Source of the DNA: a virus | Virus record (IMG/VR): IMGVR_UViG_3300027747_001100 | Location: 1 to 57,235 of that record | Direction: 5' to 3' (one strand) | Length of the DNA stretch: 57,235 nucleotides | Shown: in pieces, positions 16,671-45,400 of the stretch | Position numbering within the stretch: position 1 is the first letter of the stretch | Layout: the number at the start of each line of letters is the position of its first letter | The notes under the pieces: model-generated | Told to the model about the DNA's origin: nothing | The model's input: the letters and a program-made list of their open reading frames with translations, nothing else | The model's database searches: none | Position numbers and translations under genes: made by a program

Positions 16671-19600
16671 ATGGCACTCGAAACTTTAAACTCTACTGAC
16701 CCGATTGCTGGACTATACGATAGTGTGTTTAAGCGTGCGCCTGATGCTGCTGGATTAGAATTTTGGAAAAATGCATATAACACAGGCACTTCACTAGAAC
16801 AAATTAAAAATGCGTTTCAAAATTCACAAGAAGCACAAGCAAACCCTTATGTTAATACACTTGGTGGTACAGGCGCCAATCTTGAGCAAGGTTTTGTAAA
16901 CCCAAATCGAGATAATGCTTTACCTAGTAATGTTCAAGCAACAACACAGCAAACATCACTGCCAACTGGAACAGCAGGCACAACACTTAATGCTACTCAA
17001 ATGGCTTCTACGGTTCCAGATCCAAATGAGGCAGCTATTACAAGTTTGTACGATAGTGTGCTTAAACGAACACCGGATGCTTCTGGTTTAGCATTTTGGA
17101 CACAAGCAGCAAAAAATGGAATGTCTTTAGCTGACATTAAATCGTCTATTGCGGCTTCACAAGAAGGCACAGCAACAACTGCAGTTAATAACCTTTACAC
17201 AAACTATACTGGAACAGCACCAACTGCAACTCAGTTAAATGATGCAAAGACACAGCTTAGTTCTGGCAAGACGGTAGATGATGTAACAAAGAGCTTATTA
17301 GCTACTCCGACTACTAAGACTTCTATTGAAAAATTAATTACTCAGATGTATGATGATCGTCTAGGTCGAGTACCTGATGCAAATGGGTTATCGTTCTGGT
17401 CTTCTAAAGTGCTTAACGGTCAAATGACATTAGCGGATGTTGCTAAACAAATTGGTACCTCATCAGAAGGATCAACAGCCGCTTCAGTTGCTAATATTTT
17501 CCAGCAATATACCGGAAAACTCCCTACGCCACAAGAATTAGCAGATGCTCAAGCTTTGTTAAGATCTGGTAAAACAATAGATGACGTAACAAAAAACTTA
17601 GCAGCTAATGTAGCTAATAAGCCTGCTGTTGAAAAACTAGTTTCTCAGATATATACAGACCGTTTAGGTCATTCGCCTGATGCAAGTGGTTTAGCTTTTT
17701 GGACTTCCAAAATAACCGCTGGAACAATGACATTAGCTGATGTTGCTAAACAGATTGGCGGGTCAACCGAAAGCACAGCATTCCAAAATGATCCTGTTAT
17801 AAAGCTCTATCAGCAATATGTAGGTCGTACACCTTCGTTAGCAGAGTCTGATTTTTGGAGAACACAACTGTCTAAAGGCATACCTCCAGCAGAGATTGCT
17901 AAAGGAATTGCTTTATCTGATGAAGGCATTAAATATTCAACAACTAATTTAAAAGCAATTTTAACAGCACAAATAGGTGCTGATTTTGTTAACAGTTTAA
18001 CTCCATCACAAATTACGCAATATGCTACTTTGCTTGCAGACCCTAGTTTAACTACTCGAGCACCAAAGTTGTCACAAGATCAATTTGACTCTAATTACTA
18101 TTTAGCTCAAAACCCCGATGTTGTTAGAAATGGTTTTGACCCTTATACGCATTACAAACAGTTCGGATATAATGAAGGCCGCGCCGGTAGTGCAACTGAT
18201 AAAATTCAAATAGCCAAAACTAATGACGACAAGATAAGAGATATTTATGGTCAAATGGCAAAAGACCCAGTGCTTGGTGAAAAGATAAAAGCAAGCAGTC
18301 CACTTTTATATGAGGCAGTAACGCCATTAACTGACATTGGTGGTAAGTTGATTAATGGAACGCTTAATTATAACTATGGCTCATACAATGATTTACCTAT
18401 TTTAAATGCAAATGTTGCACTTGCTGCTGTAGGCGATGGCAATGTAATGACTAACTTTTCTCATAAGCGTGGCCATATTACCGATAATCTTGGGTGGCAA
18501 GGAACTGGATATAGTGGGAAAATTTTACGAGGCGCTGACGCTGTTGGTGTAACTGTTAATCTTGATGAAGACGGTAATGTCGGTAGTTATTCCGGGTTAA
18601 ACGAAGCCGCTGATTTGCTTGGAATTGACAAGAATCAATTTAAAGATAAACAAGTTCCACTTTTAACTAAAGATGTAAGAGATAGTGACGGCAATGTAGT
18701 ATCAATAGCTGGCCAACCGGTTTATAAAACAGATGGAAACGGCGACTACCTATATGATGATAAGGGTCAGCTAATACCAAAAATGCGTACAATAACCGCA
18801 GAGTCACAGCTTTACGACGCCGTTGATAAAGCGTCAAAAAGCATTTGGTCTGTAACACTTAACTCACTTGAACCTGGCCAAGCAGTTGAAAAAGGTTCAA
18901 GAAGCTTCCAAACTGCACTATATAGACAAGAAGGCGATAAGTTATTAGCTATTTCTAAGGCTGTGTCACACGGCGGTGTGTATAACATGGATATATACAC
19001 TGGCGGTAGCGGATTTAACTTTGGTCGTGATATAGCACCAGGCCTTGTTTTTGTCGGAACAGCTGCATTAACCATGGCTACACTAGGAGGTTCAGCTCCA
19101 TTAACAGCAATTGGTGCAGGTGTAGGCTTAACTGGCTCAGCAGCCACCATTGCCGGTGGCGTTATTGTTGGTGCAACCATGGGAGGTCTAAATGCATCAG
19201 CATCTGGCCAAGACCCAGGCAAAGGCATATTAACTGGTGCTGCTATCGGCGGCATCACATCTTCGATGCAACCGCTAATGAATACAGGACCTGTAGCCGG
19301 CGTGCTTAAAGATGTTTCAGAAGCATCAGGTGGCTTTTATACTCAACAACAACTTGGAAGTATTGTTGGTACAACTTTAGCAACTACTGTAGGTAGTGCA
19401 GTTAAAGGCGCAAATGGAGATCAGATTTTTGAAGCATTTGCCACGTCTTTAGCGGCTAATGGTATTAGCCAAACTGGTGTAAGCGCCATTACTTCTGCAT
19501 TAAAAGATGTTGTATCTCCAGACACAATGGCTAAGATTGCACGAGCTACACAAATTGCTGGAAGCACTGTAGCAACATCTGCATTAAGCGGTAAGAACCA

Positions 19601-21317
19601 AGAGCAGATTTTTAATAATTTAATTAGTCAGTTTGCTGACCCAACTAAAGCAATTGGCACCATAGGCAGTGTTGTAACAGCAAAAGATACGACAGGTGGC
19701 GGTACAACTACGACAGGTGGCGGTACAACTACGACAGGCGGTGATACAACTACATCTACTGCAAACGACACTAAAATAAATGATATTGCTTCAAATTTTG
19801 GTATATCTGCAAATGATTTAAAGTCAATTTTATCTGATGCCCCAGATGTTGCTGACAAGTTATTTGGCACTGGAACTCAAGTTGCAGATATTTCAGGAAC
19901 AATGCCTTTTGGCAAAAGTAATGTGCCAGGCACTGAAGGCTATGACCCAAAACAGCCTACTATTGATTTACCTAAAGTAGCAACTGACTTAAAAGCTAGT
20001 CTAGATAATGTTCCAGCTACTGATTTGTCGCAAGGATTAAATGTTAATGCAACACACTTTACGCCTACATTAACATTACAAGATTACACAAATGACAAGA
20101 AAACATTACAAGACCAATATGATAAAAAAGAAATAACAGAAGAGCAATTTAAAAAAGATAATGCAGCATTAGACAAAGATTTTAATAATCAAACTCAAAA
20201 CTTAACTCAAGCATTAAATCTTCTTAACACTCTTATTAGTAAGGGTATGGATGCTAATACTGCATTAACAAAGTCTGCAGTTGCAACTAATTTAAACAAA
20301 CTAGACTTAGCCAGCGTAATTACAGGCAAAACAAACACTAATACACAAGTCACAGGAACTGGTACTAACACAACTAGTACTGTTACAACTAGTACTGTTA
20401 CAACAGGTACAGGAACAGGCACTAACCTAACAGGAACAGGCACTAACCTAACAGGAACAGGTACTAACCTAACAGGAACAGGCACTAACCTAACAGGAAC
20501 AGGCACTAACCTAACAGGAACAGGCACTAACCTAACAGGAACAGGCACTAACCTAACAGGAACAGGCACTAACCTAACAGGAACAGGCACTACAACACCG
20601 CCTAAAACTGTTCAACAGACTTCAACTTCATATGCAGTACCGTCTTCTGGATCTACAACAATAGGCGCATTGCCTGGAAATTTACAATCAACTTCATTAG
20701 CAGCAGCACCCGTGACAGGAACACAAATGAACTTAGCTCAATTAAAGCAACTCTATCCTCAACTTTCTAATGTTGACCCGAGAATACTTAATTCTCTTAC
20801 AGGGAAAAAAGCTCAAGCACCTGGCTATTTTACTTATGGCGCAGACTCGGCAGGCGGAACTAACTTGTCTATGCAAGGACAAGGTGGATTACCTAGTCCA
20901 GGTTACCCGACACAAGCTGCTGACACAAAAGGGCTAGAAACTAAGTTCGCTGCTCCACAAAGTGTAAATCCGAACTATAATGCTTTATCGTCGGCAGGAT
21001 TAAACTTGGTCAATACAGGCAATCTTGGGTATAAAGACGGTGGAAATGTACATATTCCTCAGTTTAAGACAGGCACTACAGGGCATTTTGTACAAGGCGC
21101 AGGTGATGGTCAATCAGATGACATTCCTGCCATGCTTGCTGATGGAGAATACGTATTTGATGCAGACACGGTTGCAGCCTTAGGTAACGGATCTTCAAAA
21201 GCAGGTGCATTACAGTTAGACAAAATGAGGAAATCAATCAGAAAGCACAAAAGAGGTGCATCTATTGATAAAATACCACCTAAGGCCAAATCGCCACTAG
21301 AATATTTGAAAGGTTAA
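16671..21317 (+). CDS. giant virion protein with DUF4214 repeats (ejection/internal protein candidate)
   Basis: The product has 1548 residues. Residues about 8-430 hold five DUF4214-type units (IAGLYDSVFKRAPDAAGLEF and its variants LYDSVLKRTPDASGLAFW, MYDDRLGRVPDANGLSFW, IYTDRLGHSPDASGLAFW, LYQQYVGRTPS). A Gly/Ala-rich hydrophobic stretch near residues 780-860 could insert into membrane. Residues about 1245-1305 are eight tandem GTGTNLT heptads. The C-terminus has YKDGGNVHIP, then GDGQSDDIPAMLADGEYVFD and a basic tail (KMRKSIRKHKRGAS), a segment I know from phage tail and internal proteins. DUF4214 is common in adhesins and secreted proteins. An ejection or penetration role is inferred from size and position. 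Confidence 0.65.
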   Translation: MALETLNSTDPIAGLYDSVFKRAPDAAGLEFWKNAYNTGTSLEQIKNAFQNSQEAQANPYVNTLGGTGANLEQGFVNPNRDNALPSNVQATTQQTSLPTGTAGTTLNATQMASTVPDPNEAAITSLYDSVLKRTPDASGLAFWTQAAKNGMSLADIKSSIAASQEGTATTAVNNLYTNYTGTAPTATQLNDAKTQLSSGKTVDDVTKSLLATPTTKTSIEKLITQMYDDRLGRVPDANGLSFWSSKVLNGQMTLADVAKQIGTSSEGSTAASVANIFQQYTGKLPTPQELADAQALLRSGKTIDDVTKNLAANVANKPAVEKLVSQIYTDRLGHSPDASGLAFWTSKITAGTMTLADVAKQIGGSTESTAFQNDPVIKLYQQYVGRTPSLAESDFWRTQLSKGIPPAEIAKGIALSDEGIKYSTTNLKAILTAQIGADFVNSLTPSQITQYATLLADPSLTTRAPKLSQDQFDSNYYLAQNPDVVRNGFDPYTHYKQFGYNEGRAGSATDKIQIAKTNDDKIRDIYGQMAKDPVLGEKIKASSPLLYEAVTPLTDIGGKLINGTLNYNYGSYNDLPILNANVALAAVGDGNVMTNFSHKRGHITDNLGWQGTGYSGKILRGADAVGVTVNLDEDGNVGSYSGLNEAADLLGIDKNQFKDKQVPLLTKDVRDSDGNVVSIAGQPVYKTDGNGDYLYDDKGQLIPKMRTITAESQLYDAVDKASKSIWSVTLNSLEPGQAVEKGSRSFQTALYRQEGDKLLAISKAVSHGGVYNMDIYTGGSGFNFGRDIAPGLVFVGTAALTMATLGGSAPLTAIGAGVGLTGSAATIAGGVIVGATMGGLNASASGQDPGKGILTGAAIGGITSSMQPLMNTGPVAGVLKDVSEASGGFYTQQQLGSIVGTTLATTVGSAVKGANGDQIFEAFATSLAANGISQTGVSAITSALKDVVSPDTMAKIARATQIAGSTVATSALSGKNQEQIFNNLISQFADPTKAIGTIGSVVTAKDTTGGGTTTTGGGTTTTGGDTTTSTANDTKINDIASNFGISANDLKSILSDAPDVADKLFGTGTQVADISGTMPFGKSNVPGTEGYDPKQPTIDLPKVATDLKASLDNVPATDLSQGLNVNATHFTPTLTLQDYTNDKKTLQDQYDKKEITEEQFKKDNAALDKDFNNQTQNLTQALNLLNTLISKGMDANTALTKSAVATNLNKLDLASVITGKTNTNTQVTGTGTNTTSTVTTSTVTTGTGTGTNLTGTGTNLTGTGTNLTGTGTNLTGTGTNLTGTGTNLTGTGTNLTGTGTNLTGTGTTTPPKTVQQTSTSYAVPSSGSTTIGALPGNLQSTSLAAAPVTGTQMNLAQLKQLYPQLSNVDPRILNSLTGKKAQAPGYFTYGADSAGGTNLSMQGQGGLPSPGYPTQAADTKGLETKFAAPQSVNPNYNALSSAGLNLVNTGNLGYKDGGNVHIPQFKTGTTGHFVQGAGDGQSDDIPAMLADGEYVFDADTVAALGNGSSKAGALQLDKMRKSIRKHKRGASIDKIPPKAKSPLEYLKG
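20409..20588 (+). repeat. 21-bp in-frame tandem repeat, eight copies
   Basis: The unit ACAGGAACAGGCACTAACCT plus one A repeats eight times and encodes GTGTNLT in the 1548-residue protein. Copies are almost identical; the third uses GGTACT instead of GGCACT. The period is a multiple of three, so slippage changes length without shifting frame. It probably forms a flexible linker. Confidence 0.9.
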
Positions 21318-40165: not shown

Positions 40166-41149
40166 ATGGCACACGAAATCGATATGTCAAACGGACAAGC
40201 TAACATGGCATACGTGGGGGAAACCCCATGGCATGGCCTTGGTCAACAACTTAAGGCAGGCGCCACAATCGAGCAATGGCGTAAAGCAGCCGGTATGAAT
40301 TTCTCTATTTATACCAGCCCAGTACAGTTCGAAAGCCCTGAAGCGGTCGGTGACCCAATGACCTTTGACGGTCATAATGTTCTATACCGCTCAGACACCA
40401 AGGTTCCACTTGCAGTGGTTTCTAATAAGTATCAGGTAGTTCAACCTAAAGAAGTACTAGAGTTTTACCGTGACCTTACGGCTGGTGCCGGCTTTAGCTT
40501 AGAAACAGCCGGTGTTCTTAAAGGCGGTAAAAAGTACTGGGCATTGGCATCCATTGGCAAAGAAGCCAAAATTCTTGATGACCAGATCAAAGGCTACCTC
40601 CTGCTAGGCTCAGCATGTGATGGCTCAATGGCTACTACAGCTATGTTTACCTCAATCCGCGTAGTGTGCAACAACACACTTGGCTTTGCAGTGTCCGAGG
40701 CTGATAACGGTACTGCCAAAGCAGTGGTTCGTATTAACCACCGCACCTCATTCGATGAAGCCAAAGTTAAGGCACAACTAGGCCTAGCCGCCAACAGCTG
40801 GGATTCTTTCCTTTACAATGTAAACGTTTGGTCCAAGACCAAGGTCGATCTGGTACAGGCACAGGCCTACTTTGATAAGGTTGCCTCATACACAACCACA
40901 GAAGGCGAGGAAAGAGTATCAGATCGTACATCCAAGTACCTCATGGAACTATTTGCTGGCGGTGGCAAAGGCAGTGATTTAAAATCGGCTAATGGAACAG
41001 CATGGGGCTTAATCAATGCAGTTACTGAGTTTGTTGACCATCACCGTGGTCGTTCTAATGATGTTCGTATCGACCGTGCTTGGTTTGGTGACGGCATTAA
41101 AACGAAAGAGCTCGCAACTGATTTAGCCAATGATCTTTGCTTTGCATGA
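40166..41149 (+). CDS. DUF932 protein (phage/plasmid-like family)
   Basis: The product has 327 residues. MAYVGETPWHGLGQQL at the start, YQVVQPKEVLEFYRDL and TSIRVVCNNTLGFAV mid-protein, and a RINHRTSFDEAKVKAQL helix are the DUF932 pattern (TIGR03299, phage/plasmid-like protein). Function is unknown; it lies between early genes and the helicase-primase. The coding DNA has more C and G than neighbours, with codons such as GCC and ACC. Confidence 0.85.
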   Translation: MAHEIDMSNGQANMAYVGETPWHGLGQQLKAGATIEQWRKAAGMNFSIYTSPVQFESPEAVGDPMTFDGHNVLYRSDTKVPLAVVSNKYQVVQPKEVLEFYRDLTAGAGFSLETAGVLKGGKKYWALASIGKEAKILDDQIKGYLLLGSACDGSMATTAMFTSIRVVCNNTLGFAVSEADNGTAKAVVRINHRTSFDEAKVKAQLGLAANSWDSFLYNVNVWSKTKVDLVQAQAYFDKVASYTTTEGEERVSDRTSKYLMELFAGGGKGSDLKSANGTAWGLINAVTEFVDHHRGRSNDVRIDRAWFGDGIKTKELATDLANDLCFA

Positions 41150-41224: not shown

Positions 41225-41253
41225 TCAAGGTGTTTCACGTAAAGGAAATGGAA

Positions 41254-43323
41254 ATGTCATCAGGGTTTGCATCCCATACAACACAACCAGAACAATTATA
41301 CTACAATGATCTTAAAAACAGAAAAATCACTGATGAAGATGCAAAAATCTTAGGCTTAGAGTTACTGAATCCAGAGCAAACACAAGCTCTGATCGGACAC
41401 ACTAAAGACTGGGCAATCAAGATACCGTATTTTGATTTGCAAGGGCAAGCTACTGGCTTTACTCGTATTCGGCTTTTAATGCCAAAAACTAAGATGAAGT
41501 ATAGCCAGCGTAGGTCTAGTGGCGCTCACATCTATTTTCCGCCAACCATCAATTGGCAGTCATACATTAAAGATGTTAGATTACCGCTGATTATTACAGA
41601 AGGTGAGTTTAAAAGCTGGGCTATCGTAAAAGCAGTGTCTAATGAAGGCCTGAACCATGCTGTGATTGGCTTAGCAGGCGTTACTAGTTGGGGTGATAAG
41701 GCCAATGAAACGCCATTGCATAAAGACCTGATGGAGATCATGTGGAAAAAGACTACCGGTTACGAAACAGTTAACCGCCAAGTCTACGTTCTATTTGACT
41801 ATGACGGTAAAGAAGATAATGGCGAGCCTAATGAACAAGTTGCTATAGCAGAAGCACAATTAGCCAAGACACTGAGAGGACTAGGCGCTGATGTGCATCT
41901 ATGCCGCATCGGTAAATATGCTAATGCTCAATACGATAAATACGCTATTGATGACCACCTGAATGACGGCAAAACATTAGGTGAAGTGTTACTAAATGCT
42001 GAGCAATTAAGTGTCATGGGAATAGCCGATCTTAAAACGCTACTCTACGAATTTAGAACACAATATGCATTCTTTAATGGTGATGTGATTCGCTTACATG
42101 ATGGCCATGGGTTTGCATACAGTAAAGCTAAGATCGATGCCGGCCATTTGCGCTATCAATTTACCAATGCACAAGGTCAAGTTAAGAATACAGACTTGTT
42201 GGATGAGTATAAAGCTTGGCCAAAGAAGCTAAACCTAAAAGCTATTGATGTATACCCTGAGTACCAAGGTTATACCATCACACCAGATGGTGCATACAAT
42301 CTACTTAAAGATTGGCGCTATGCACCTATGGACGGTGATGTGCAGGCTTACTTAGACTTTTGTAAGTACTTTTTTCGCGACCTACCAGAGTTTGAGGATT
42401 TCTTTCACAACTGGGTAGCACAGATAGTTCAACAACCTTGGAAAAAGAACTTTACATCCATTATCTTTGCATCTAGTTTAGAAGGTGTAGGTAAATCAGC
42501 TTTGGCTGAGTTTATAGCTACTATGATGGGCATCGGCCTTAACTGGCCTGCAGGCATTTGTGGCCCTGATGAAATCTTTAAAGAAAAGAATGATGTATTA
42601 AGTGGCAAACTACTGGTAGTGGTTAACGAACCTAGCAGTGACCGTGACGACCACCAGAAGACACTCAAACACCTAGTCACATCCGACTTTATTAACATTG
42701 ATAAAAAGTACGGCCTGAAGTACACGACTAGGAATTACATTAATCTAATTCTGACCACCAATGCTTCATATGTAACCAAAATGAGCAAAAATAGCCGTCG
42801 CGATGCTATTTACATGCCTAAAACGCTGACACGCGAAGAAGGATCTATGCGATACAAAACTCTAGAACACTGGGCTAAGCATGAACACGGTTATTCTAAA
42901 GTTCTAAACTGGTACATGTGTAGAAATCTAGAAGACTATAGTCCAACAGCAGCCGCACCAACATCGGCACACAAGGACGAAGCAGTTAAGATGAGCCAAA
43001 CCAGTATTGAAGACTTTGCTGATGAGCTATATGAGATTATCGAGCATGAAATGCAAGGCATTGCAGCATTTCGGCCTAACCAGATAGAGATATTAGCAGA
43101 AGCTCTAAGCGGTCTAAAGAACGTAAAAGCCAAAGCTTTGGTCTATGCATTTAGCAAAATAGGTGAGGTTGACATGTCAGCAGTAGTTAAGATAGACGGT
43201 GTTGCTACTAGATTTCATGTGTATGTAACAAAGAGTGGAAGTTACAAAAGTAAAGTTACAAAATTGCATGATGTGATTTTAGCGACCAAAGACATGGTGA
43301 ATAAGAGGCTCAGCCTTGGATAA
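41254..43323 (+). CDS. primase-like/D5-family helicase (DUF3854 + DUF5906 type)
   Basis: ATG 41254 follows AAAGGAAATGG; an in-frame GTG at 41230 is less likely. The product has 689 residues. Residues about 105-240 resemble a TOPRIM/DUF3854 domain (IITEGEFKSW with Glu116 and Glu118, VLFDYDGKED). Residues about 360-540 are a D5/DUF5906-type superfamily 3 ATPase: Walker A SSLEGVGKSAL (Lys414), Walker B LLVVVNEP, sensor LILTTNASYV, and an Arg-containing SRRD. The DnaB-like helicase is absent, so this is likely the replicative primase-helicase. Confidence 0.85.
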   Translation: MSSGFASHTTQPEQLYYNDLKNRKITDEDAKILGLELLNPEQTQALIGHTKDWAIKIPYFDLQGQATGFTRIRLLMPKTKMKYSQRRSSGAHIYFPPTINWQSYIKDVRLPLIITEGEFKSWAIVKAVSNEGLNHAVIGLAGVTSWGDKANETPLHKDLMEIMWKKTTGYETVNRQVYVLFDYDGKEDNGEPNEQVAIAEAQLAKTLRGLGADVHLCRIGKYANAQYDKYAIDDHLNDGKTLGEVLLNAEQLSVMGIADLKTLLYEFRTQYAFFNGDVIRLHDGHGFAYSKAKIDAGHLRYQFTNAQGQVKNTDLLDEYKAWPKKLNLKAIDVYPEYQGYTITPDGAYNLLKDWRYAPMDGDVQAYLDFCKYFFRDLPEFEDFFHNWVAQIVQQPWKKNFTSIIFASSLEGVGKSALAEFIATMMGIGLNWPAGICGPDEIFKEKNDVLSGKLLVVVNEPSSDRDDHQKTLKHLVTSDFINIDKKYGLKYTTRNYINLILTTNASYVTKMSKNSRRDAIYMPKTLTREEGSMRYKTLEHWAKHEHGYSKVLNWYMCRNLEDYSPTAAAPTSAHKDEAVKMSQTSIEDFADELYEIIEHEMQGIAAFRPNQIEILAEALSGLKNVKAKALVYAFSKIGEVDMSAVVKIDGVATRFHVYVTKSGSYKSKVTKLHDVILATKDMVNKRLSLG

Positions 43324-43506
43324 AGTGGTTGTTTTTGTAACTTGTAACCGTATTTGTAACCTATTTGTAACGGGGTTGCGGAGTATACTGAGCTTAGCTA
43401 CGAAGTATCTGAGTTACAAAGGTTACATTATTCTATTTAAAATTAAAATATGTATATGTATATCGTATAAAAGAGTCTGCAGCATTTTGTAACCGTTTTT
43501 GTAACC
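43241..43506 (+). repeat. TTGTAAC iteron-like cluster
   Basis: About ten copies of TTGTAAC or its reverse GTTACAA. Direct copies begin at about 43335, 43342, 43354, 43365, 43487 and 43499. Inverted copies lie at 43241, 43255, 43413 and 43421. Spacing of the direct copies is 7, 12, 11 and 12 bases. The first copies are inside the end of the helicase gene. A long AT-rich stretch (43429-43470) lies between the groups. Confidence 0.85.
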
Positions 43507-43536: not shown

Positions 43537-43980
43537 ATGACAGCAGAAAAGAAAATTGGTAGACCTACGAAATATGATCCAGCGTACTGTGAGATCGCGA
43601 TAGAGCTCGGACGGCAGGGCAAGAGCCGTGAGTCGATTGCGGCAAACTTAAACGTAAGCTGGAATACACTCAACATATGGGCTGAAACTCATCCAGAATT
43701 TTTAGAGGCCTTGAGCAATGCCAAGACCTTAGAGCAGGATTACTGGGAAGATCTAGGCTTACGCTACATCGTAGAGGCTCCTGGAGGATCCAAACTTAAT
43801 TCGGCGGTCTGGGGCAGATCAATGGCTGCTCGGTTTCCACAAAAGTGGCGCGATAATTCTAAGATGGAAGTTGTTGGCAAGGACAATGGCGCAATACAGG
43901 TCGATGTGGTTCATGACTTTTCACAAGGCTTATTGAATGATTTGCTAGCTACTAGACAAGACGATGCCGATAAAGAGTGA
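43537..43980 (+). CDS. terS: terminase small subunit
   Basis: The product has 147 residues. Residues 7-60 read GRPTKYDPAYCEIAIELGRQ, GKSRESIAANLNVSWNTLNI, W-HPEFLEALSNAK, the helix-turn-helix typical of phage small terminases. The rest is helical with an acidic end. It recognises the packaging site and recruits the large subunit. The start lies 30 bases after the last TTGTAAC copy. It overlaps the large subunit gene by 17 bases. Confidence 0.85.
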   Translation: MTAEKKIGRPTKYDPAYCEIAIELGRQGKSRESIAANLNVSWNTLNIWAETHPEFLEALSNAKTLEQDYWEDLGLRYIVEAPGGSKLNSAVWGRSMAARFPQKWRDNSKMEVVGKDNGAIQVDVVHDFSQGLLNDLLATRQDDADKE

Positions 43981-45400
43981 CACAGCACTAGAATTCGCTG
44001 AAAAGCTAAAAAATAATAAGCAAATCAACCACTTACCGCCGGAATACCAAGCGGCGTTTAAAGCACGTGCCATCTGGCTACACATAGCCAACAATCATCA
44101 GCTACCGCCAAGTGGCGACTGGTGGGACATATGGCTTCTGTTGGCAGGCCGTGGTGCCGGTAAGACACGTTGTGCCGCTGAATGGGCTTGGTGGGAAGCA
44201 TGGAACTCTAAGACACCGATTCGTCTACTCGTCTCAGCGCCGACATTCGGTGACTTACGAGACGTTTGCTTTGAAGGTGACTCGGGGCTGCTTAACGTGA
44301 TGCCAACTAGTCTCATCAAGAACTATTCTAAGTCCGTGACTGAGCTGGAGCTAATCAACGGATCTCTAATCAAAGGCATTGCAGCGTCTGAACCAGAACG
44401 TTTTCGTGGTCCTCAGTTTCACGGCGGCTGGCTTGACGAGCTTGCCGCTTGGATGTACCTTGACGAGGCATGGGACATGATTCAGTTCGGCATGCGTCTT
44501 GGTCAACACCCTCGGCTGATCTGTACGTCGACGCCAAAGCCAAAGCCACGAGTCTTAGAGCTGATTGGCCGAGATGGCGATGACGTGGCTTATACAACGG
44601 CCACTACGTATGACAACATCATGAACTTGGCGCCTACGTTCCAGAAACAGATTCTTCAGTATGAAGGCACATCCATCGGCCGCCAAGAGATTTACGCCGA
44701 GATCATTGACCCTGAAGAGTCTGGCATCATTAAGCGAAACTGGTTTAGGCTTTGGAACAACGACAAACCGTTGCCACAGTTCCAGTACGTGGTGCAATCG
44801 TATGACTGTGCTACGTCCGACAAGACAATCAACGATCCAACCGCATGCTCTGTTTGGGGTGTCTTTAAGCCAAGCGATGACAAGCCAATGTCCGTGATGC
44901 TGATCGACTGCTGGACTGAGCACATGCAATACCCAGAGCTACGACCAAGAGTCGTGGAAGAGTATGCCTCGATCTATGGCGATGAGGACGAATGGGGCCA
45001 TGGTAAGAAGGTCGATCTGGTGCTGATCGAGGACAAGTCGGCCGGTATTTCCCTGATTCAAGACCTACAGCGTGCTGGCTTGCCTGTCCGTGCTTACAAT
45101 CCTGGAATGGCCGACAAGACGCAACGGCTTAACATCGTTAGTCCTATCATAGCCAAGGGCTTGGTCTACATACCTGAGTCTACGGTCAAAAAAGGTGCAC
45201 CAAGAGACTGGGTTGAACCGCTTCTAAATCAGATATGCGCGTTCCCTGAGGTTCGGCATGACGACTTGGTTGACACAACCAGCCAAGCACTACGTATTCT
45301 TCGTGACATGGGCTTCCTAACTGTGGACTACATACCGAATGACAATGACATGTATGTCGATGAGACTAAGCCAAAATATGTAAACCCGTATGCCGTTTGA
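43964..45400 (+). CDS. terL: terminase large subunit
   Basis: The product has 478 residues. ATPase: Walker A LLAGRGAGKTR (Lys67), Walker B GGWLDELAAW (Asp158-Glu159), coupling motif CTSTPKP (residues 187-193). Nuclease (RNase H-like): SYDCATSDK (Asp281), LIEDKSAG (Glu356, Asp357) and RHDDLVD (Asp433, Asp434). All are intact. The known role is to drive DNA into the prohead and cut concatemers. The circular map is compatible with headful packaging. Base composition looks less AT-rich than the fibre genes. Confidence 0.95.
   Translation: MPIKSDTALEFAEKLKNNKQINHLPPEYQAAFKARAIWLHIANNHQLPPSGDWWDIWLLLAGRGAGKTRCAAEWAWWEAWNSKTPIRLLVSAPTFGDLRDVCFEGDSGLLNVMPTSLIKNYSKSVTELELINGSLIKGIAASEPERFRGPQFHGGWLDELAAWMYLDEAWDMIQFGMRLGQHPRLICTSTPKPKPRVLELIGRDGDDVAYTTATTYDNIMNLAPTFQKQILQYEGTSIGRQEIYAEIIDPEESGIIKRNWFRLWNNDKPLPQFQYVVQSYDCATSDKTINDPTACSVWGVFKPSDDKPMSVMLIDCWTEHMQYPELRPRVVEEYASIYGDEDEWGHGKKVDLVLIEDKSAGISLIQDLQRAGLPVRAYNPGMADKTQRLNIVSPIIAKGLVYIPESTVKKGAPRDWVEPLLNQICAFPEVRHDDLVDTTSQALRILRDMGFLTVDYIPNDNDMYVDETKPKYVNPYAV

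Follow-up and report, generated by a model that had tools for sequence, protein, structure and literature searches.

A TTGTAAC repeat array as the probable replication origin of a 57-kb tailed phage, and primase-helicase residues that track its sequence

Results and discussion

The window analyzed here, i.e., the entire IMG/VR record IMGVR_UViG_3300027747_001100 (57,235 bases), harbors an array of TTGTAAC repeats (iterons) that runs from the 3' end of a primase-helicase gene into the gap between the helicase stop (43323) and the small terminase gene terS (43537). This array is probably (about 0.84), as judged from comparison with related phages, the theta-type replication origin of the phage, bound by the primase-helicase. 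A preliminary description, made from the sequence alone, had offered an iteron origin or a packaging (pac) site, with either the primase-helicase or TerS as the binder; the comparison strongly, though indirectly, favors the origin and the primase-helicase, because the identity of the motif tracks residues of the predicted winged helix at the helicase C-terminus and not the helix-turn-helix of TerS. The parts of the array are as follows.

43224..43371, both strands: left iteron group, with TGTAAC at 43224+, 43241-, 43255-, 43336+, 43343+, 43355+, and 43366+
43413..43427, minus strand: inner left iteron pair at the edge of the AT-rich core (copies 43413- and 43422-)
43428..43487, no strand: AT-rich core, candidate DNA unwinding element, containing CGTATAAAAGAGTCTGCAG
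43488..43505, plus strand: inner right iteron pair (copies 43488+ and 43500+)

Layout of the repeat array

TTGTAAC occurred 26 times on both strands of the window, and nine exact copies (TTGTAAC/GTTACAA) fell within 43241-43505, against 0.079 expected in 265 bp from the density elsewhere in the genome (Poisson P(>=9) ~3e-16 per window of that size). The shorter TGTAAC core was present in 11 copies in 43224-43505, three of them within the 3' end of the helicase gene, and neighboring direct copies started 7, 12, 11, and 12 bases apart. The earlier account of about ten clustered copies, spaced 7-12 bases and partly inside the end of the helicase gene, is thus borne out, and the motif density that it asked to be compared elsewhere in the genome was not matched outside the array. 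The AT-rich element it had placed between two groups of copies is also present, measured as the 60-bp gap separating copies 43422 and 43488 (43427-43480, 81% AT; best 35 bp, 91% AT), so that the copies run in the order left group, minus-strand inner pair, AT-rich core, and plus-strand inner pair. Within the core, CGTATAAAAGAGTCTGCAG is nearly unchanged in the closest relatives.

The array fills the gap directly upstream of the late operon, and initiators often autoregulate; the copies might accordingly be read as an operator, rather than an origin, through which the helicase or another regulator controls the terS-led late operon or the helicase gene itself. Two groups, a conserved AT-rich core, and up to 12 copies nevertheless exceed the needs of an operator, the arrays extend into the 3' end of the helicase gene, and promoter-like matches were at chance level (2 vs 1.1 expected), making this reading highly improbable. 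Searches for terminators and against Rfam likewise gave nothing above chance.

Recurrence in related phages

Two protein-led searches of viral contigs yielded 90 loci, and a third, which used an alignment of helicases, about 70 more, including some second views of contigs already sampled. At 125 loci with both the helicase and terS, at least five copies (range 5-12) of one TGT-headed hexamer were found upstream of terS, the motif being TGTAAC at 55 loci, TGTTAC at 45, TGTAAT at 17, and TGTATC at 8. These classes hardly mix within a single genome, and a switch between lineages involves the whole block; about nine such switches were counted on the tree of the helicase core. Paired copies in opposite orientation across an AT-rich core of 60-85 bp were present in 54 of the 58 dereplicated loci. 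Core lengths grouped at 60-66, 70-73, and 82-85 bp, which is suggestive of helical phasing, but no sharp period emerged (R 0.49 at 10.5-11) and phasing is not claimed.

In the window and most relatives, the array overlaps and then follows the 3' end of the helicase gene, the exceptions being L006, L009-L011, and L013. TerS-related loci that yielded no helicase (L076, L078, L080, L082, L083, and L085-L091) showed no comparable array, whereas two distant helicases on contigs of bacterial metagenome-assembled genomes (L171 and L174, both with DUF3854 and DUF3631) have TGTKAC or TGTTCC arrays within the 3' end of their own coding sequence, with terS not detected within the stretch retrieved around them. 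As coding DNA, these two arrays (L171:9759-10057 and L174:3234-3405) also specify a protein tail, e.g., QNVTQNVTQNTENVT. At the 7-mer level, a clear array was not seen in the isolate phages AXL_3 and MW202621 (~22% helicase identity).

Small additions were observed beside some arrays. An open reading frame (ORF) between terS and the array (L009:2662-3273, minus strand, and also in L010 and L013) matched GIY-YIG weakly, at E 0.004, which misses the Pfam cut-off, pointing to a possible homing endonuclease insertion, and four loci of the TGTAAT lineage (L017, L018, L020, and L024) have an extra small-ORF-like stretch between array and terS.

Co-variation of the motif with the primase-helicase

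The genes compared are listed below.

41230..43323, plus strand: primase-helicase gene, proposed initiator; 697 amino acids (aa) from GTG 41230, 689 aa from ATG 41254
42958..43320, plus strand: helicase C-terminal domain (aa 577-697), predicted winged helix, proposed iteron binder
43183..43191, plus strand: codons Val652-Val653-Lys654 (644-646 in the 689-aa numbering); these wing residues vary with the iteron sequence among relatives
43537..43980, plus strand: small terminase gene terS (147 aa), homologue of Shigella phage Sf6 gp1, not favored as iteron binder
43964..45400, plus strand: large terminase gene (Terminase_6N, 2e-21), used as a comparison column set

The primase-helicase combines a TOPRIM-like DUF3854 (Pfam, 3e-11), a superfamily 3-type helicase DUF5906 (8e-14), and a predicted C-terminal winged helix, and its helicase core matches the solved 'Primase' 6k9c (E 1e-15). 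AlphaFold2 modeled the C-terminal 121 residues in the element order H-E-H-H-E-E-H with a confidence (pLDDT) of 82; by position in this model, residue 637 lies in the recognition helix and residues 652 and 654 close to where the first wing strand ends. The preliminary description had seen no obvious phage-encoded initiator and thereby overlooked this domain. The TerS assignment was supported by PDB 3hef (E 7e-12) and the PHROG small terminase family (1e-24).

When a binding site changes as a block, its binder has to change with it; the helicase C-terminus and the N-terminus of TerS, which lie at similar distances from the array, are the two candidates. Rank correlation of motif distances with protein distances left the TerS helix-turn-helix and the helicase C-terminus tied (0.33 each), and testing was therefore done per column. 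A scan of 31 loci ranked helicase residue 652 first of all helicase, TerS, and TerL (large terminase) columns by two measures. As relatedness inflates such counts, the key test covered about 1,300 columns of the three proteins in the 58 dereplicated loci with relatives of >65% helicase identity excluded. Here, residue 652 was the best single predictor of motif class (40/45), compared with 0.63-0.69 for the best TerS column and 0.63 for the best TerL column. Among residue pairs, 652+654 predicted 40 of 41 loci and 637+652 all 38, whereas the best TerS N-terminal pair reached 31/39; the case for origin specificity in the C-terminal domain is thus a strong co-variation, drawn from sequence comparison.

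A simple rule on residues 652 and 654 was correct in 57 of the 58 loci: V, I, M, or A at 652 with K or R at 654 accompanies TGTAAC, L with K TGTTAC, T with R TGTATC, and S, T, or N at 654 TGTAAT. Position 654 thereby pairs K or R with C, and S, T, or N with T, at motif position 6, as expected if residue 654 reads that base pair. The wing pattern was spotted by eye in the initial loci before the scan, which itself covers every column. The later loci are partly independent, in that known pairs (VK, VR, MK, and LK) were predicted correctly while new pairs (AK, PN, SS, and AS) completed the rule. The helicase C-terminal tail and the iteron site therefore appear to have evolved together.

Linkage could in principle imitate such a pattern, if the helicase 3' end and the array were co-inherited without any contact between protein and DNA; the helicase C-terminus adjoins the array in most loci, and motif class is strongly clustered on the trees. 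The TerS N-terminus is, however, about equally close and far less predictive, and the signal is concentrated in wing and recognition-helix columns and persists without the close relatives. It is also found in pairs that converged (L017 and L074 each combine TGTAAT with T at 654) and at L006, which fits though its array and helicase gene are kilobases apart. Hitch-hiking of this kind is extremely unlikely.

The comparison also bears on a packaging role, in which the helix-turn-helix of an Sf6-type TerS would bind the repeats and TerL would cut in or near the AT-rich core to start packaging, making the array a pac or cos site. Where present, the array sits upstream of terS, also when the helicase gene is elsewhere, and SPP1-type pac sites bear repeats and overlap the start of terS (PMC4737164). 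TerS nevertheless predicts the motif poorly beside the helicase wing pair: one TerS recognition helix, VSWNTL, accompanies three motifs (TGTAAC, TGTATC, and TGTAAT), and very different TerS recognition helices share one motif. Together with the terS loci that show no comparable array and the two array-bearing helicases without a detected terS, this makes a pac or cos site very unlikely as the primary role. The adjacency to terS is probably incidental, although the array may also serve packaging.

Points weighing against a helicase-read origin

Several observations count against the preferred reading of the array as an origin bound by the primase-helicase. Cumulative GC skew, proposed earlier as a check, has its minimum at 40,899, 2.3 kb from the array and near a flip in gene orientation, which it follows; it is weakly informative. 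The C-terminal domain gave nothing significant in a PDB sequence search or in Foldseek, and its winged-helix call comes from the model. L068, with an insertion in its wing region, violates the residue rule, and L012 has a degenerate array only. Several relatives have contigs that terminate in the AT-rich core, a point shared with the packaging reading; the assembly may have broken at AT repeats, or the DNA itself may end there. Such ends were seen as tails in L133 and L152 and as heads in L061, L063, and L073, and also in L037 and L058, L152 and L063 being opposite ends of the same 59,743-base contig.

Finally, at L006, L009-L011, and L013, the helicase gene lies kilobases from terS while the array remains next to terS. 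The motif still fits the wing, as at L006 (TGTATC with T-R, array ~4.5 kb from the helicase gene) and at L009 (TGTAAC with M-K). Because separated loci keep the array by terS and yet have a motif that fits the helicase wing, the position of the array goes with the start of the late operon, and its sequence with the helicase.

Proposed mechanism and comparison with known systems

Under the origin reading, the primase-helicase would bind the TTGTAAC iterons via its C-terminal winged helix, whose recognition helix (residues around 637) and wing (residues 652 and 654) would set the iteron sequence. The oppositely oriented iteron pairs flanking the 60-bp core may position helicase oligomers at both sides of it, and these oligomers would melt the AT-rich core, load the helicase, and prime bidirectional synthesis.

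The array was taken as an origin because the plan of a helicase gene followed by iterons, an AT-rich region, and iterons matches that of phage-inducible chromosomal islands (PICI) and Staphylococcus aureus pathogenicity islands (SaPI) and lies near that of P4 alpha and crr, while co-variation is known in PICI-like elements (PLE). In passages of PMC6092414 and PMC7581432, PICI/SaPI origins come after an initiator-helicase gene and have an AT-rich region between two iteron sets, and passages of the latter have the helicase C-terminal domain read the iterons. As in these Pri-Rep systems, the origin proposed here lies directly 3' of the initiator-helicase gene, with iteron sets flanking an AT-rich region (the 54 of 58 loci above), and terS sometimes neighbors the PICI/SaPI replicon as well. 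In contrast to those ~15-kb satellites, the ~57-kb tailed phage of the window has DNA polymerase A and late genes. Because it encodes terminase, portal, and DNA polymerase A, it is not a PICI and is PICI-like in its replicon only.

P4 alpha shares the DUF5906 core (2.5e-9 there, plus Toprim) and the order TOPRIM, helicase, and C-terminal DNA-binding domain (the last predicted here), and crr, with short repeats in both orientations, is annotated directly 3' of alpha. P4 differs, however, in having two separate repeat sites (ori and crr) with 8-mers of another sequence, and a Pfam scan of the window helicase found no match to Pox_D5, the C-terminal origin-binding domain of alpha. The two C-terminal domains are without detectable homology (hhalign probability 0.1), a further point to be set against the reading preferred here.

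In PLE satellites, the DNA-binding domain of the RepA_N initiator co-varies with the origin, resembling the case here; passages of PMC8263062 describe two variant groups and contain no residue-level code. As for packaging sites, SPP1/SF6 have repeats at and upstream of terS, as seen here, and passages of PMC4737164 report that the isolated TerS DNA-binding domain is not specific for them; in the present loci, too, TerS sequence fails to track the motif.

Elsewhere in the window, about ten CAGGAAC copies (20322-20717) were observed within an ORF of 1548 aa (16671-21317, five DUF4214 stretches), with a local change in skew.

Significance

Origins of this type are already known; what appears to be new is their use in tailed phages of ~50-60 kb and a specificity code at the level of residues. 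An open-access literature search found neither described for phages of this lineage, a result that does not prove their absence. Passages of PMC6092414 describe the initiator-helicase/iteron/AT-rich plan as unique to phage satellites, and its presence in phages of this size bears on the source of satellite replicons.

We know of no origin or initiator for most uncultivated phages; here, sequence is enough to name an origin, and initiator and origin are connected by a testable code of two residues. It seems rather probable that a large lineage of full-size tailed phages uses PICI-like origins in which each of the repeated block changes of the iterons has its counterpart in one or two substitutions in the initiator-helicase wing. 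We lean, to a similar degree, toward regarding the matching of iteron and wing as a readable protein-DNA specificity code that separates origin classes among related phages. A concerted change of 6-12 iterons together with their binder raises the question of how an origin can change its sequence with its function kept, and also whether origin class influences the competition of co-infecting phages.
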